In this document: piece after piece, positions 21,035-27,262 of the stretch
Layout of the letters: each line of letters opens with the position of its first letter
How positions within the stretch are numbered: the first letter of the stretch is position 1
Assembly (NCBI RefSeq): GCF_027532945.1
Contig: NZ_JAPZTZ010000003.1
Span: forward strand, 124,001 to 188,000
Reading direction: 5' to 3'
Length of the DNA stretch: 64,000 bases
Source of the DNA: Phreatobacter sp.
GTDB taxonomy: Bacteria > Pseudomonadota > Alphaproteobacteria > Rhizobiales > Phreatobacteraceae
Translations under genes and position numbers: made by a program
Notes under the pieces: generated by a model
What the model saw: only the letters and a program-made list of their open reading frames with translations
What the model was told of the DNA's origin: nothing
Database searches by the model: none

Positions 21035-22651
21035 TCAGCGCCTCGGGCCGAACAACGCGCGGCGCAGGGCCGTGACGGTGGGCGCGTCGGGAACCGCCGC
21101 CGGCTCCATGACGATCGGCAGAGGCATGCCGGAGGGGCTTGTCGCCGGACTGGCGATGGCCGGCAGGGCCTCCATGACGCGCTCCGACGGGAAGGTCACG
21201 GTGACCTCCGTGCCGATCCGCACCGTCGATTTCAGCGTGAAGGTGCCGCCATGCATGGTGACCAGGCCCTGCACGATGGGCAGGCCGAGGCCGGTGCCCT
21301 GCTCGGCATTCTTGATGGCGTTGGAGCCCTGGCCGAAATTCGACAGGACGATGGGGATTTCGTCCTCGGGAATGCCGGCGCCGGTGTCCTTCACCGAGAG
21401 ATATTGCCCGCCGGACGCGGTCCAGCCGACCTTCAGCGTGATCTCACCGCCACCCGGCGTGAATTTGATGGCGTTGGACATGAGATTGAGGACGATCTGG
21501 CGGACGGCGCGCTCGTCGGCCCAGATCTTCGGCAGGTCCGGCTCGAACCGCTCGACGATGGCGACGCCCTTGTTCTTGGCGCGCACCTTGAGGAGGTGAT
21601 GGCAGTCCTCGACCACGTAGGACAGCGTGATCGCCTCCTCGTTGAGGTCGTAACGGCCTGCCTCGATGCGCGACAGGTCCAGGATCTCGTTGATCAGCGA
21701 CAGGAGATGCTGGCCCGAGGAATGGATGTCGTTGGCATATTCGGCATATTGCGGCGCCGAATGGGGGCCGAACATCTCGCCCTTCATCACCTCGGAAAAG
21801 CCGAGAATGGCGTTGAGCGGCGTGCGCAATTCGTGGCTCATCTGGGCGAGGAACTGCGACTTGGCGATGTTGGCCATCTCGGCATTGCGCCGCGCCTCGT
21901 CGGAGTTGGTCTTGGCGGTCTCGAGCTCGCCGATCAGCGCATCCTTCTCGGCGCGGGCCTCGATGGTGGCGAGGTTGGTCTGGTAGAGCCGCGCAGAGAT
22001 GATGGCGAAGAACATCAGTGTGCCAAGCGCGATGGCCCCAAGCACCACACCCTGCATGCCGTGCAGCAGCAGGAAATAGGCAACGACGAGGCTCGCGACC
22101 GGCAGCGAAGAGGCGAAGGTCGCCACGGGGACGGTCGAGCCGATCATCGCGGACACGGCGACGACGATGAGCATGCCGACCAGCAGGAAGGTGCTGGCCT
22201 CCGGCACCTCGGTGCGCATCACCACGAGGAAAGCCAGGACCCAGGAAAGGCCCAGCATCGTCTCGGCGATGACGAAACGCAGACGCCAGGAGCGCAGGTC
22301 CGCCCGGTCAGCCGGCACCTTGAGGAAGGAGCGGGAGACGAGGACGCAGAAACCGTGGGCGATGAGGACGATGAGGCCGGCGCCGGCTCCCATGACGGGA
22401 TTGGTCACCCAGCCGGCGACCCAGCCGGTGGCGGCGGCGATGAGGGCAATGGCGAGGGCGGCGGAGAGCTTGTTCTGCGCGAAGGCGCGCATCAGCTCGT
22501 AATCGAAGGAGCGCTTGTTGCCGGTCGTGGAGGTGAGGCGGTCACGGGCGTCGCGCACATGGCGAAGCGTCCGCTTGCGGTTCTGCGCGTGCTGGCGGGC
22601 GCGCTCGGCCTGCCGCTCGTCCGGCTGCCCCTCTGCCCCCTCCATGCCCAT
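21035..22651 (-). CDS. Membrane sensor histidine kinase (PleC/DivJ-like core)
   Basis: A 538-residue kinase. After a charged, Arg/Gln-rich N-terminus, five or six membrane segments span about residues 60-220 without a large periplasmic domain, then a coiled segment leads into the HisKA domain with phosphoacceptor His273 in MSHELRTPLN. The ATPase domain has N393 in LMSNAIKFTPGGG, DTGAGIPEDEI and GTGLGLPIV, so all boxes are intact. The core resembles alphaproteobacterial PleC/DivJ kinases, whose usual partner is DivK/PleD; no response regulator is adjacent. I chose the ATG at 22651, which has AGAGGG upstream; a further in-frame ATG at 22732 lacks one. Confidence 0.85.
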   Translation of the reverse strand: MGMEGAEGQPDERQAERARQHAQNRKRTLRHVRDARDRLTSTTGNKRSFDYELMRAFAQNKLSAALAIALIAAATGWVAGWVTNPVMGAGAGLIVLIAHGFCVLVSRSFLKVPADRADLRSWRLRFVIAETMLGLSWVLAFLVVMRTEVPEASTFLLVGMLIVVAVSAMIGSTVPVATFASSLPVASLVVAYFLLLHGMQGVVLGAIALGTLMFFAIISARLYQTNLATIEARAEKDALIGELETAKTNSDEARRNAEMANIAKSQFLAQMSHELRTPLNAILGFSEVMKGEMFGPHSAPQYAEYANDIHSSGQHLLSLINEILDLSRIEAGRYDLNEEAITLSYVVEDCHHLLKVRAKNKGVAIVERFEPDLPKIWADERAVRQIVLNLMSNAIKFTPGGGEITLKVGWTASGGQYLSVKDTGAGIPEDEIPIVLSNFGQGSNAIKNAEQGTGLGLPIVQGLVTMHGGTFTLKSTVRIGTEVTVTFPSERVMEALPAIASPATSPSGMPLPIVMEPAAVPDAPTVTALRRALFGPRR

Positions 22652-22820
22652 CCGCGGGCCCTCTCCACGCAACGCAACGCCAACCGAGGTTGAAATGTGG
22701 CAGAGCTTGATTAACGGCGGGTCGACATCCATGGTAAACGAAACATGAACAGACCGTACCGCCGATTCCGTCCGCTTCGCCGGACCGCCCGATCGGCCCG
22801 CCCCGCCCATCGACAGCGCC

Positions 22821-23378
22821 ATGACCGTGCCCGCCCTCCTGCGCTTCTCGCGCTTTCGCAGCCTGCGGCCCCAGACCGGCTTTCTCTGGTTGCTGGCGTT
22901 GGTTGCCGGCATCACCGCGCTCGCCGTGCAGCATGCCTGGCGCAAGGCGGGCTCGCCGCGGACCGTTTCCGGCCATGCGCGGATCATTGATGGCGACAGC
23001 CTCGTCGTCGCCGGGGTCGAGGTCAGGCTGTGGGGCATCGATGCGCCAGAACTGTCGCAGCGCTGCCAGCGCGAGGGCCGGGAGGTGCGCTGCGGGCGGG
23101 AGGCCTATCGCTCCCTGATCGCGCTTGCGGCCGGTCAGCCTGTGACCTGCGAGAGCCGGGACATCGACCGCTACGGCCGCACCGTCGCGATCTGCCGCGT
23201 CGACGTGGTGGATCTCGGGCGGGCTCAGGTCATGGCGGGCCAGGCCGTGGCCTTCGGGGCCTATTACCAGGACGAGGCCGCGGCGCGGGATGCGCGGCGC
23301 GGCCTGTGGGCGGGCGAATTTGTCCGCCCCCGCGACTGGCGCGCCCAGCATCGCACCATCGTGCCCACGGAGCACTGA
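22821..23378 (+). CDS. Membrane-anchored thermonuclease-family (SNase-like) protein
   Basis: A 185-residue protein. A single hydrophobic segment (about residues 20-37) should anchor it or act as a signal, and the remainder is an OB-fold nuclease-like domain: RIIDGDSLVVAGVEVRLWGIDAPEL contains the Ca2+-binding Asp and the catalytic Arg of the SNase family, REAYRSLIALAAG follows, and DRYGRTVAIC supplies the second conserved Arg. The domain ends with GLWAGEFVRPRDWR. Hydrolysis of extracellular or periplasmic nucleic acid is expected. It is divergent from the histidine kinase across 169 nt. Confidence 0.85.
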   Translation: MTVPALLRFSRFRSLRPQTGFLWLLALVAGITALAVQHAWRKAGSPRTVSGHARIIDGDSLVVAGVEVRLWGIDAPELSQRCQREGREVRCGREAYRSLIALAAGQPVTCESRDIDRYGRTVAICRVDVVDLGRAQVMAGQAVAFGAYYQDEAAARDARRGLWAGEFVRPRDWRAQHRTIVPTEH

Positions 23379-23492: not shown

Positions 23493-25661
23493 ATGGCAGC
23501 TTCGCCGCCCGATCTCCTCCTGCCGCTTCTCGTCATTGCCTGCGTGAGCCTCGTCGTCGCGGGCCATGTGACGCTGGAGAGCGGCCTCGTGCGCGCCAAG
23601 CACAGCGTCAACGCTGCCGCCAAGGCGTTGGTCCAGATCGCCATCGCGGTGCTGGCGACCTGGGCGGTGGGCTTCGGCATCATGAATGCGGGCGGTGCCT
23701 TCGCCGGCGGCGGTCCCTTCCTGCCGGGCGACGGGGGCATGGACCTCGTCCTCGCCACGACGCTCGTTGCCGCTGCGGCGACCGTCCTGTCGGGGCCCCT
23801 CGCCGAACGGGCGACGCTGCGAGGCTATGCAGCCCTCCTCGCGGTCTTCGCCATCGCGGTCGTGCCCTTCACCGTCCACTGGGCCTTCGCGCAGGGCCCG
23901 GCACCCGGATGGCTCAAGGCCGCCGGCTATGTCGATCTCGCGGGGGCCGGCGCCATCCACGCCGCCGCGGGCGCCGCCGCCCTCGCCGCGGCCTGGGTGG
24001 TCGGTCCGCGCACCGGCCGGTTCTCGGGTTCGCGCCGCACCCTCATCGTCCAGAGCCAGAGCTTTCCCTTCGCCGCGCTCGGCGTGATGCTGCTGTGGCT
24101 CGGCTGGTTCGGGGTGGCGGTGACCCAGGCCATTGCCGGTGGCCACGCCGTCGCGCCCACCGTCATGAACCTCGCCCTGGCCGGCGCCTCCGCCATCATG
24201 GCCGCCTTCATCGCCAACCAGATCCGCCCCGCCCGGGTCACGGTGGTGCATATCATCCAGGCGGCGCTCGCCGGCGTCGTGGCGGCCTCCGCCGCCGCCC
24301 ATCTCATGCACCCGGCCGGAGCTGTCCTCGCCGGCGTCGTGGGCGCGGCGGCAGCGCTCGGCGGCAGCCGCCTCCTGGAGAGCGTCCGGATCGACGACGC
24401 TCTTGGCATGGCCTCCGCCCATCTGTTCGGCGGCGCGGTGGGCGTCTGCGCCGTGGCCTTCTGCATGCCCGACGACCTGCCGATGATGCTGGCGATCCAG
24501 CTCGCAGGCCTCCTCGCCATCACCGGCTGGGCGGTGGCCGTCATGGCGGGTGGCGGCTTCGCGCTGCGGCTGGTCCTCGCCCTTCGGGTCACGCCCGAGG
24601 AGGAGCGTATCGGCCTCAACGTCACCGAGCACGCCATGACCACGGATGTGGCGATGCTGGTCAGTCAACTTGGCGCGCTGCAGCTCAACAGCAGTTCCTT
24701 CCTCTATCTCGAGGCGGATTCAGACGGCGAGCTCGGCCAGATCGCCCGCGAATACAACCGGGCCATCGACATCTTCCACGCCCAGATCCGCGGCGTGAAG
24801 GAGAAGCTGAGCCTCGCCGAGGCCGCCGCCGACCAGGCGAACGACCTCAATGCCCGCCTCTCCTCAGAGATGCAGGAGAAGGACGAGAAGCTTGAAGCGG
24901 TGAACCGCGAGGTCGCCTTCCTCACCGACCAGGTCGCGCGCGCCCTCGTCGCGGTGGAAAACCTCAAGGGCGTGCGCGCGGGCATCCTGCGGCTCCTCGG
25001 CCGCACCTTCCGCCAGCCCATCGAGCGGCTGCACCTGATGGCGCGACGCGCCGCCTCCAGCCGCGACCAGAACGACATCGACGCCCTGATCGAGGCGGCC
25101 CGAGAGGAATCGGCCCGTCTCGCCCGTCGTCTCGCCGATGTCCTCGACTATGCCCAGGCCTCCGCCATCGAGGGGCCGCCCTCCGGTGACCTCGCGCCGA
25201 TGGAGAAACTCATCGGCGAGATGAACCTGCTGCATCGGCCGCGGGCGGAATCGAAGGCCATCCGCTTCCGCGTGGTCTGGACACCCGAGGTCGCGGGGAT
25301 GGGGGCGAACGCCGTTGCCATGCGCAAGATCATGGGGGAACTCGTTGCCCATGCCATCGACGCCACGCCGCGGGGCGGCATGGTCAATTTCTCGGCCAAG
25401 CAAGGCCCCGGCGGTGAACTGGTGATCGATGTCGTGGATTCCGGCGGCGGCGTCTCGCCCGGCCAGCTCGCCGAAGCCCTCGACCCGCTGGCGGAGCGCG
25501 AGACCGATGGCAGCGAGACCGGGCTCGGCCTTGCCCTTGTGAAAAAGCTCGTCGACCTCCACGGCGGCGCGCTGACCATCCGATCCAAGCCCGGCGCAGG
25601 CACGCAGGTGCGCGTCACCCTGCCGGCCCAGCACCTCACCCGGGCGCTCACCGCCAGCTGA
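23493..25661 (+). CDS. Ammonium transporter fused to a degenerate histidine kinase
   Basis: A 722-residue fusion. Residues 8-365 are an Amt/Rh-type channel: GLVRAKHS in helix 1, GPLAERATLRGY, then Asp148 and the twin-His residues His156 (GAIHAAAG) and His310 (SAHLFGG), so the conduction path looks intact. Residues 370-490 hold the GLNVTEH...REYNRAIDIF linker seen in other Amt fusions and a coiled coil. Residues 495-712 are kinase-like: the phosphoacceptor position is Arg504 (RTFRQPI against HELRTPL) and the N-box Asn is His620 (LVAHAIDAT), while the D-box DSGGG (649-653) and G-box GLGL remain. It probably senses ammonium, but autophosphorylation looks impossible. Confidence 0.85.
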   Translation: MAASPPDLLLPLLVIACVSLVVAGHVTLESGLVRAKHSVNAAAKALVQIAIAVLATWAVGFGIMNAGGAFAGGGPFLPGDGGMDLVLATTLVAAAATVLSGPLAERATLRGYAALLAVFAIAVVPFTVHWAFAQGPAPGWLKAAGYVDLAGAGAIHAAAGAAALAAAWVVGPRTGRFSGSRRTLIVQSQSFPFAALGVMLLWLGWFGVAVTQAIAGGHAVAPTVMNLALAGASAIMAAFIANQIRPARVTVVHIIQAALAGVVAASAAAHLMHPAGAVLAGVVGAAAALGGSRLLESVRIDDALGMASAHLFGGAVGVCAVAFCMPDDLPMMLAIQLAGLLAITGWAVAVMAGGGFALRLVLALRVTPEEERIGLNVTEHAMTTDVAMLVSQLGALQLNSSSFLYLEADSDGELGQIAREYNRAIDIFHAQIRGVKEKLSLAEAAADQANDLNARLSSEMQEKDEKLEAVNREVAFLTDQVARALVAVENLKGVRAGILRLLGRTFRQPIERLHLMARRAASSRDQNDIDALIEAAREESARLARRLADVLDYAQASAIEGPPSGDLAPMEKLIGEMNLLHRPRAESKAIRFRVVWTPEVAGMGANAVAMRKIMGELVAHAIDATPRGGMVNFSAKQGPGGELVIDVVDSGGGVSPGQLAEALDPLAERETDGSETGLGLALVKKLVDLHGGALTIRSKPGAGTQVRVTLPAQHLTRALTAS

Positions 25662-25744
25662 CGGCCCCCTCGACCTGAGGAGCGGGATGCGGCATGGTCC
25701 GCCCTCCCCTGACCGTGCCCGACAGCCGAGACTTGCGTTCCATC

Positions 25745-27262
25745 ATGGCCAACCATCTCTACGACCTCGTCCGCCTCTACGCGACCGACCCTGGCAAGAC
25801 CTTCATCGAGACGGACAACGGCACGGTCTTCACCTATGACGACCTCTTCGCGGCGACGGGACGCTTCGCCAACGCCCTGGTGGCGAGCGGCGTGAAGCCG
25901 GGGGACCGGGTTGCGGTGCAGGTCGAGAAGTCGCCTGGCGCGATCTTCCTCTATCTCGCCTGCGTGCGGGCCGGCGCCGTCTTCCTGCCGCTCAACACCG
26001 GCTACACCCTGGCGGAGATCGAGTATTTCCTCTCCGACGCCGAACCGGCCCTCGTGGTCTGCGACCCGGCCAAGCGGGACGGTATCGCCGACGTTGCGGC
26101 GAAGACCGGCGTGCCAGCGGTCGAGACGCTCGGGCGCGCCAAGGACGGCTCGCTCTGGCAGAAGGCATCCGGTCTGCCGGCCGTCTTCGACACGGTGTCC
26201 CGGGGCGCCGACGACCTCGCGGCCATCCTCTACACCTCCGGCACGACGGGGCGCTCGAAGGGCGCCATGCTGACGCATGACAACCTCGCATCGAACGCTC
26301 TGACCCTGAAGGACTACTGGCGCTTCACCCGGGACGACGTGCTGCTGCACGCGCTGCCGATCTTCCACACCCACGGCCTCTTCGTCGCCACCAACACGGT
26401 CCTGATGGCCGGCGCCTCCATGCTGTTCCTGCCGAAGTTCGACGCCGACACGGTGTTCGAGCTGCTGCCGCGGGCCACCACGATGATGGGAGTGCCGACC
26501 TTCTATGTCCGCCTCGTCCAGGACGCCCGGCTGACGCCCGGCGCGACGCGCCATATGCGCCTGTTCATCTCAGGGTCCGCCCCGCTGCTCGCCGAGACGC
26601 ACCGCGCCTTCCGCGAGAAGACCGGCCAGTCGATCCTCGAGCGCTACGGCATGACCGAGACCAATATGAACACCTCGAACCCCTATGACGGCGAGCGCAT
26701 CGCCGGCACGGTGGGCTTCCCGCTGCCGGGCGTGTCGCTGCGCGTCACCGAGCCCGAGACCGGCGCCGAGCTGCCGCAGGGCGAGATCGGCATGATCGAG
26801 GTGAAGGGTCCCAATGTCTTCGAGGGCTATTGGCGCATGCCGGAGAAGACCGCGGCGGAGTTCCGCGCCGACGGCTTCTTCATCACCGGCGACCTCGGCA
26901 AGATCGACGCCCAGGGCTACGTCCACATTGTCGGGCGCGGCAAGGACCTCGTGATCTCCGGCGGCTACAACGTCTATCCGAAAGAGGTCGAGACCGAGAT
27001 CGACGGCATGACCGGCGTCTTCGAGAGCGCCGTCATCGGCGTGCCGCATCCCGATTTCGGCGAGGGCGTCACGGCGGTGGTCGTGGCGGTGCCGGGGGCA
27101 AAGCTCGATGCAGGTGCCATCCTCCAGGCGCTGGAGGCGCGGCTCGCCAAGTTCAAGCTGCCGAAGAAGGTCATCATCGTCGATGACCTGCCTCGCAACA
27201 CCATGGGCAAGGTGCAGAAGAACGTCCTGCGCGACACCTACAAGGGGATCTACGGGGGCTGA
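25745..27262 (+). CDS. matB: Malonyl-CoA synthetase
   Basis: A 505-residue acyl-adenylating enzyme that makes malonyl-CoA from malonate, ATP and CoA. The P-loop is YTSGTTGRSKGA, the adenylate loop ERYGMTETNMNTSNPYDG is the diagnostic MatB form, and ITGDLGK, GRGKDLVISGGYNVYPKE and the catalytic-lysine loop PRNTMGKVQKN complete the set. The start at 25745 (MANHLYD) matches the family N-terminus; an in-frame ATG at 25694 has the better ribosome binding site (GAGGAG) and would add 17 residues. It lies 32 nt or more after the Amt-kinase gene and convergent to pcaB. Confidence 0.92.
   Translation: MANHLYDLVRLYATDPGKTFIETDNGTVFTYDDLFAATGRFANALVASGVKPGDRVAVQVEKSPGAIFLYLACVRAGAVFLPLNTGYTLAEIEYFLSDAEPALVVCDPAKRDGIADVAAKTGVPAVETLGRAKDGSLWQKASGLPAVFDTVSRGADDLAAILYTSGTTGRSKGAMLTHDNLASNALTLKDYWRFTRDDVLLHALPIFHTHGLFVATNTVLMAGASMLFLPKFDADTVFELLPRATTMMGVPTFYVRLVQDARLTPGATRHMRLFISGSAPLLAETHRAFREKTGQSILERYGMTETNMNTSNPYDGERIAGTVGFPLPGVSLRVTEPETGAELPQGEIGMIEVKGPNVFEGYWRMPEKTAAEFRADGFFITGDLGKIDAQGYVHIVGRGKDLVISGGYNVYPKEVETEIDGMTGVFESAVIGVPHPDFGEGVTAVVVAVPGAKLDAGAILQALEARLAKFKLPKKVIIVDDLPRNTMGKVQKNVLRDTYKGIYGG

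Follow-up and report, generated by a model that had tools for sequence, protein, structure and literature searches.

Ks-Amt5 of Candidatus Kuenenia stuttgartiensis is an Amt receptor domain joined through a linker to a DHp-CA half with a phosphorylatable His; it binds two NH4+ ions via Q24, E31, N47, D50, T51, T109, and T112, keeps the Phe gate (F103/F223), the filter (W144/S227) and the His pair (H171/H326), and, complete as these motifs are, is inefficient at translocating ammonium (PMC5764959). DivL, a tyrosine pseudokinase of Caulobacter (PDB 4q20), has an acceptor Tyr in place of the His, an LRTPL core and PAS sensors; it has neither kinase nor phosphatase activity, but it binds DivK~P and acts as its sensor (PMC4211667). 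Sd-Amt1 of Shewanella denitrificans (PDB 8qj3, 8qj4, 8qpf) is another Amt receptor with a linker and an added output. Canonical Amt-kinases are also found in Alphaproteobacteria, for example L013 of strain SO-S41 and L014 of a Euryhalocaulis MAG, and these keep the H-box motif SHE[LF]RTPL, the N-box Asn and the full sensor site. The output domain of Sd-Amt1 we take to be a diguanylate cyclase. Both Amt-kinases and pseudo-histidine-kinases are known, though few cases of either have been studied. A search of the open-licence literature gave no report of the two combined in an Amt pseudokinase, and we know of no signalling design described so far in which a pseudokinase receptor carries a transporter-fold sensor.

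Such a combination is encoded in the window, a stretch of 64,000 nucleotides from a Phreatobacter genome (contig NZ_JAPZTZ010000003.1, positions 124,001 to 188,000). The listed open reading frame of 722 amino acids (23493..25661, + strand, as are all its parts) has an ortholog in each of the 12 Phreatobacter genomes searched, the window's own included, and full-length relatives at 73–74% identity occur in Phreatobacter MAGs. Its domain order is Amt, receptor-type linker, coiled coil, DHp-like hairpin and HATPase_c. The Amt domain (residues 12–383; 23526..24641) matches Pfam PF00909 with E 1.6e-63. The linker (residues 366–435; 24588..24797) matches the linker profile with E 2.2e-27, precedes the output domain as in other Amt receptors, and is common to those with kinase, GGDEF-EAL, and MCP-like outputs; the canonical alphaproteobacterial Amt-kinases have the same architecture and linker. 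A predicted helical coiled coil (residues 436–497; 24798..24983), the fastest-changing segment, leads to the DHp-like helical hairpin (residues 498–562; 24984..25178), which is recognized by alignment and model and varies less within the genus than any other domain. The HATPase_c (CA) domain (residues 607–713; 25311..25631) matches PF02518 with E 3.4e-21, and HisKA gave no Pfam match in the fusion at E <= 10.

Structure models relate the two halves to different known proteins. The full-length AF2 model (19 sequences) has a mean pLDDT of 77.6, and the best structural match of its Amt half is Ks-Amt5 (6eu6; Z 53.5, rmsd 2.4, 379 aligned residues), followed by Sd-Amt1 (Z 53.2), whose alignment to the fusion stops soon after the linker. 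Modelled alone, the cytosolic half has a mean pLDDT of 78.3, and DivL is its top-ranked kinase structure (Z 21.6, rmsd 3.1, 215 aligned residues), with ZraS, CusS, and ETR1 within about one Z unit; the confidence of the DHp part is modest (pLDDT about 65 in the full model, 67–82 in the part model). The acceptor His is replaced in both DivL and the fusion, and for the fusion a binding-only output is likewise proposed, but the fusion has GRTFRQPI and an Amt domain where DivL has its acceptor Tyr, LRTPL core and PAS sensors. A separate Tyr-type DivL with SYQLRTPL is encoded in the genome. Descent of the kinase half from DivL as a paralog is unsupported by the motif or by the kinase-half tree, although DivL is its best paralog by sequence, and the resemblance is one of fold and logic, the kinase half not being placed with DivL in the tree.

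In HisKA kinases, the acceptor His, the Glu that follows it (H+1) and the phosphatase Thr (H+4) have well-established roles. By alignment, GRTFRQPI (residues 503–510) is the counterpart of SHELRTPL in the fusion, which puts Arg504 (25002..25004) at the acceptor site, Thr505 in place of the H+1 Glu and Gln508 in place of the H+4 Thr. Arg504 and Thr505 are invariant in all 12 genus orthologs; the H+4 position is Gln, Ala or Pro. The initial annotation had read this half as a pseudokinase with Arg504 where the H-box His belongs, and both points were borne out; a lone mutation or a sequencing error is ruled out by the presence of Arg504 in 12/12 genomes. It had also placed His620 (25350..25352) at the N-box Asn position, correctly as to the site, but the residue is not a fixed trait, being His in four genus orthologs (G000, G002, G003, G004), Asn in six (G001, G006, G007, G009, G010, G011) and Thr in two (G005, G008). 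The D- and G-boxes, said to be kept, are so in part: Asp649 (25437..25439; invariant in the genus) and Gly651 of G1 remain and G2 is present as GLGL (677–680) in the window protein, but several orthologs have another residue for the first Gly of G2. That annotation did not mention this variation, the changes at H+1 and H+4, the missing F-box Phe or the short ATP lid. The Phreatobacter DHp has only about 13% mean identity to canonical Amt-kinases. Since the N-box varies among His, Asn, and Thr within the genus, its change looks like later drift; judged from these alignments, loss of the acceptor is fixed and of long standing, and variation at the N-box apparently followed it.

The distribution of the acceptor His was followed with the linker profile, by which 385 genomes were searched at the level of the class and 397 at that of the order. 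Outside Hyphomicrobiales, 26 fusions have SHELRTPL at a distance of 99 residues, in one case 85, from the start of the linker and, with L013 (SHELRTPL) and L014 (SHEFRTPL), 28 alphaproteobacterial fusions retain the acceptor His. Within Hyphomicrobiales, it is absent from all the Amt-kinase-type fusions read (27 genes in 26 genomes), namely the 12 of Phreatobacter, L120 in G214, L121 in G104, L233 in G357, L123 in G106, L122 and L128 in G378, and L198–L206 in nine genomes of genus g70. The G357 gene is split by an apparent frameshift (L233, 8315–9652 and 9637–10545). Among the linker hits read in the order, no canonical Amt-kinase was found, the remainder being MCP-like or PAS-GGDEF-EAL fusions; about 20 further hits with the same lengths as these (1,080–1,140 or 831 amino acids), and partial-linker matches, are left aside here. 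In a seven-protein Pfam scan, HisKA was matched in the canonical L013 (E 5.9e-20) and in none of the six Hyphomicrobiales fusions, which did not include the window protein. Homologues with a normal H-box, which the initial annotation held would make the replacement a lone mutation if they were the majority, do occur, but in other orders.

With the most divergent rows removed, an Amt-half tree has all pseudokinase rows on one side of a branch with support 95/83, and a single change is enough to explain the H-box state. The pseudokinase forms also group in a quick Amt-half tree of all rows (SH-aLRT 96), and Phreatobacter, L120, and L121 group in a quick kinase-half tree (SH-aLRT 100), long branches being a caution in both. 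The Amt-half tree is consistent with a single loss of the acceptor His in Hyphomicrobiales, and by it the canonical Amt-kinase is likely the ancestral type of the fusion. Orthology of the G214 and g70 copies, divergent as they are, is supported by the neighbours that they have in common.

The death of the kinase is well supported, and phosphotransfer through the fusion's own DHp very probably does not take place. The reading that we lean towards, somewhat above an even chance, is that an Amt-histidine-kinase ammonium receptor gave rise to the fusion, which now works as a protein-binding pseudokinase receptor of the DivL kind. The Amt domain, presumably trimeric, would serve as a membrane-embedded sensor or anchor with an ammonium response that is changed or reduced in Phreatobacter, and its state would be passed via the coiled coil to the DHp-CA module. 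This module, transferring no phosphate from its own DHp, would bind and regulate another two-component protein, whether response regulator or active kinase, in the way that DivL, through its DHp domain, binds phosphorylated DivK and regulates CckA; by analogy, such binding as the output is plausible, if a little short of probable. Nucleotide binding may persist as a structural switch with catalysis dispensable, which fits the drifting N-box. Against this reading, G1 and part of G2 remain and six orthologs have the N-box Asn, so that ATP binding, or phosphorylation of another protein, is possible.

The genes around the fusion offer a candidate partner. A divergently transcribed PdhS/DivJ-type histidine kinase with a canonical SHELRTPL (21035..22702, − strand; 5' end estimated from orthologs) is separated from it by a nuclease-like gene (22821..23378, +; SNase motifs recognized by eye). 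Downstream, at a distance of 32 bases, lies a malonyl-CoA synthase gene (25694..27262, +; NCBIfam PRK07514, 880.9 bits, cut-off 558), which is possibly co-transcribed with the fusion. The DHp-CA module could pair with an active kinase, most simply the adjacent one, either to inhibit it within a heteromer or to serve in trans as donor or acceptor. The neighbour kinase is canonical and stands beside the fusion across the genus, and a frameshifted ChrS pseudokinase has been proposed to act via its paralogous kinase HrrS (PMC9491836). Synteny in the genus extends, however, over the whole block, and adjacency is thus nothing peculiar to this kinase. Its N-terminal half was found in 52 of 61 genomes of the order, mostly genomes that have no fusion, which makes adjacency weak evidence for partnership and weakens the case for a dedicated partner. 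Moreover, no kinase or response regulator was seen beside the fusion copies outside the genus in the stretches read. Pairing with an active kinase is therefore rather unlikely, although it fares best among the alternatives to a DivL-like receptor. The kinase adjoins the nuclease gene in eight of 18 loci read outside the genus, and the 6-TM-like kinase and the nuclease-like gene (21035–23378 of the window) form a divergent pair that is conserved in many families of Hyphomicrobiales whether or not the Amt fusion is present. The neighbours common to the fusion copies outside the genus suggest no clear function. The G214 and g70 copies (L134, L229–L232) adjoin an APH-like gene, a gene for a small conserved 'LNLAR...HGYEFVAPL' protein and one for a large NDP-forming acyl-CoA synthetase; the G104 copy has an MCP-like gene in its vicinity, and some g70 copies have PAS-containing genes in theirs.

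Phosphotransfer in another form, with ATP used and either His514 or a residue of another protein as the acceptor, is improbable. His514 (25032..25034), ten residues past Arg504, is invariant in the 12 genus orthologs, G1 is kept, and half of the orthologs have the N-box Asn. The initial annotation had named a phosphate-accepting conserved His elsewhere in the DHp helices as grounds for refutation, and His514 is such a conserved His, but the helix carries it ten residues away from the acceptor site, and no His occupies that position in L120 or L121. The N-box is His or Thr in the other six orthologs, the H+1 Glu is gone, and the F-box, the lid and part of G2 are degraded.

Selection on the fusion bears on whether it is a decaying remnant on its way to a pseudogene and has no present function. 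Catalytic and several sensor residues are lost, and the fusion gene evolves faster than its neighbours, genus identity being 58–74% for the fusion vs. 72–85% for the neighbour kinase and 82–91% for malonyl-CoA synthase. Yet the reading frame is intact in 12/12 genus genomes, and dN/dS is well below 1 in every domain: across six close pairs it is 0–0.09 in the DHp, 0.02–0.26 in the CA domain and 0.08–0.25 in the Amt domain, values that are rough, as obtained by the Nei-Gojobori method on short domains. Nine g70 genomes, in addition, retain full-length versions in which both halves are degraded. Decay is on these grounds very improbable. Mean pairwise identity in the genus is 0.83 in the DHp, 0.80 in the linker, 0.73 in the CA domain, 0.67 in the Amt domain and 0.63 in the coiled coil, and by these comparisons the fusion is under purifying selection that appears strongest in the DHp helices. 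That the helices without an acceptor are the most constrained part is the pattern expected of a protein-binding surface. The g70 proteins (L198–L206) are about 725–730 amino acids long; they have lost both the twin His and the acceptor His, along with the N-box and most of the ATP site, yet the full-length reading frame is kept in all nine genomes.

In the sensor half, Asp148, His156, and His310 align with D163, H171, and H326 of Ks-Amt5 and are invariant in the genus, in agreement with the initial annotation. Its statement that ammonium passage or sensing should be possible was too strong a deduction from Asp148 and the twin His, because the gate, the pore Ser and most NH4+-site residues are replaced, and it is now doubtful. 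The conducting-pore motifs (Phe gate, Trp/Ser filter, twin His) are incomplete in the fusion: the twin His is kept, the positions of F103 and S227 (outer Phe and pore Ser) are replaced in Phreatobacter, F223 is mostly replaced (one clade keeps it), and the filter Trp is Phe in two of the 12 genus orthologs. Replacement of Q24, N47, and D50 leaves of the NH4+ site only the Glu, the Thr (Ala in two) and the Ser at 112. All intact sensor Amts in the sample, which have kinase, GGDEF, MCP-like or cyanobacterial outputs, keep Q24, E31, N47, D50, T109, and a Ser at 112, as well as F103, F223, and S227; the T51 position is Phe or Leu in most sensor Amts. The site is intact in both aligned non-kinase fusions, L188 and L184. 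The residues of this Ks-Amt5-type site are missing from the plain, full-length Amt that is encoded elsewhere in the genome and has the Phe gate, Trp, Ser, and twin His.

A working conducting pore in the fusion is not supported by these residues, and it is highly improbable that the fusion mainly carries ammonium, by transport or leak, with the kinase half only a regulatory tail: Asp148 and the twin His are genus-invariant, but the fusion has no outer Phe or pore Ser and mostly no inner Phe, a separate full-motif Amt is available, and Ks-Amt5, with every motif, translocates ammonium inefficiently (PMC5764959). Such genes should be labelled neither ammonium transporters nor histidine kinases in annotation.

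The fusion belongs to a clade that shows the passage from Amt-kinase to pseudokinase with its forms still visible. An intact sensor with a dead kinase is found in G104 (L121) and G357 (L233), where the NH4+ site is intact except for T51 and the Phe gate and filter are present; a part-lost sensor with a dead kinase is found in Phreatobacter and in G106, which keeps part of the NH4+ site; both are lost in g70, where the twin His has gone too, as it has in G378 (L122). Tentatively, and with rather less assurance than for the fusion itself, Hyphomicrobiales may on a single occasion have converted an ammonium receptor kinase of transporter origin into a pseudokinase switch, embedded in the membrane, that controls other two-component proteins by binding; lineages would then have shed parts of the ammonium site, the extreme being forms in which both halves are dead yet strictly conserved. 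Two questions become testable with these proteins: what role is left to a histidine-kinase fold that has lost phosphotransfer, and whether the NH4+ site is still required in a receptor Amt that has ceased to drive a kinase. In other genomes, this Amt receptor with its linker is joined to MCP-like, PAS-GGDEF-EAL, and apparent PP2C/SpoIIE-type phosphatase outputs (L188, L193, L184, L189, L021, L029).
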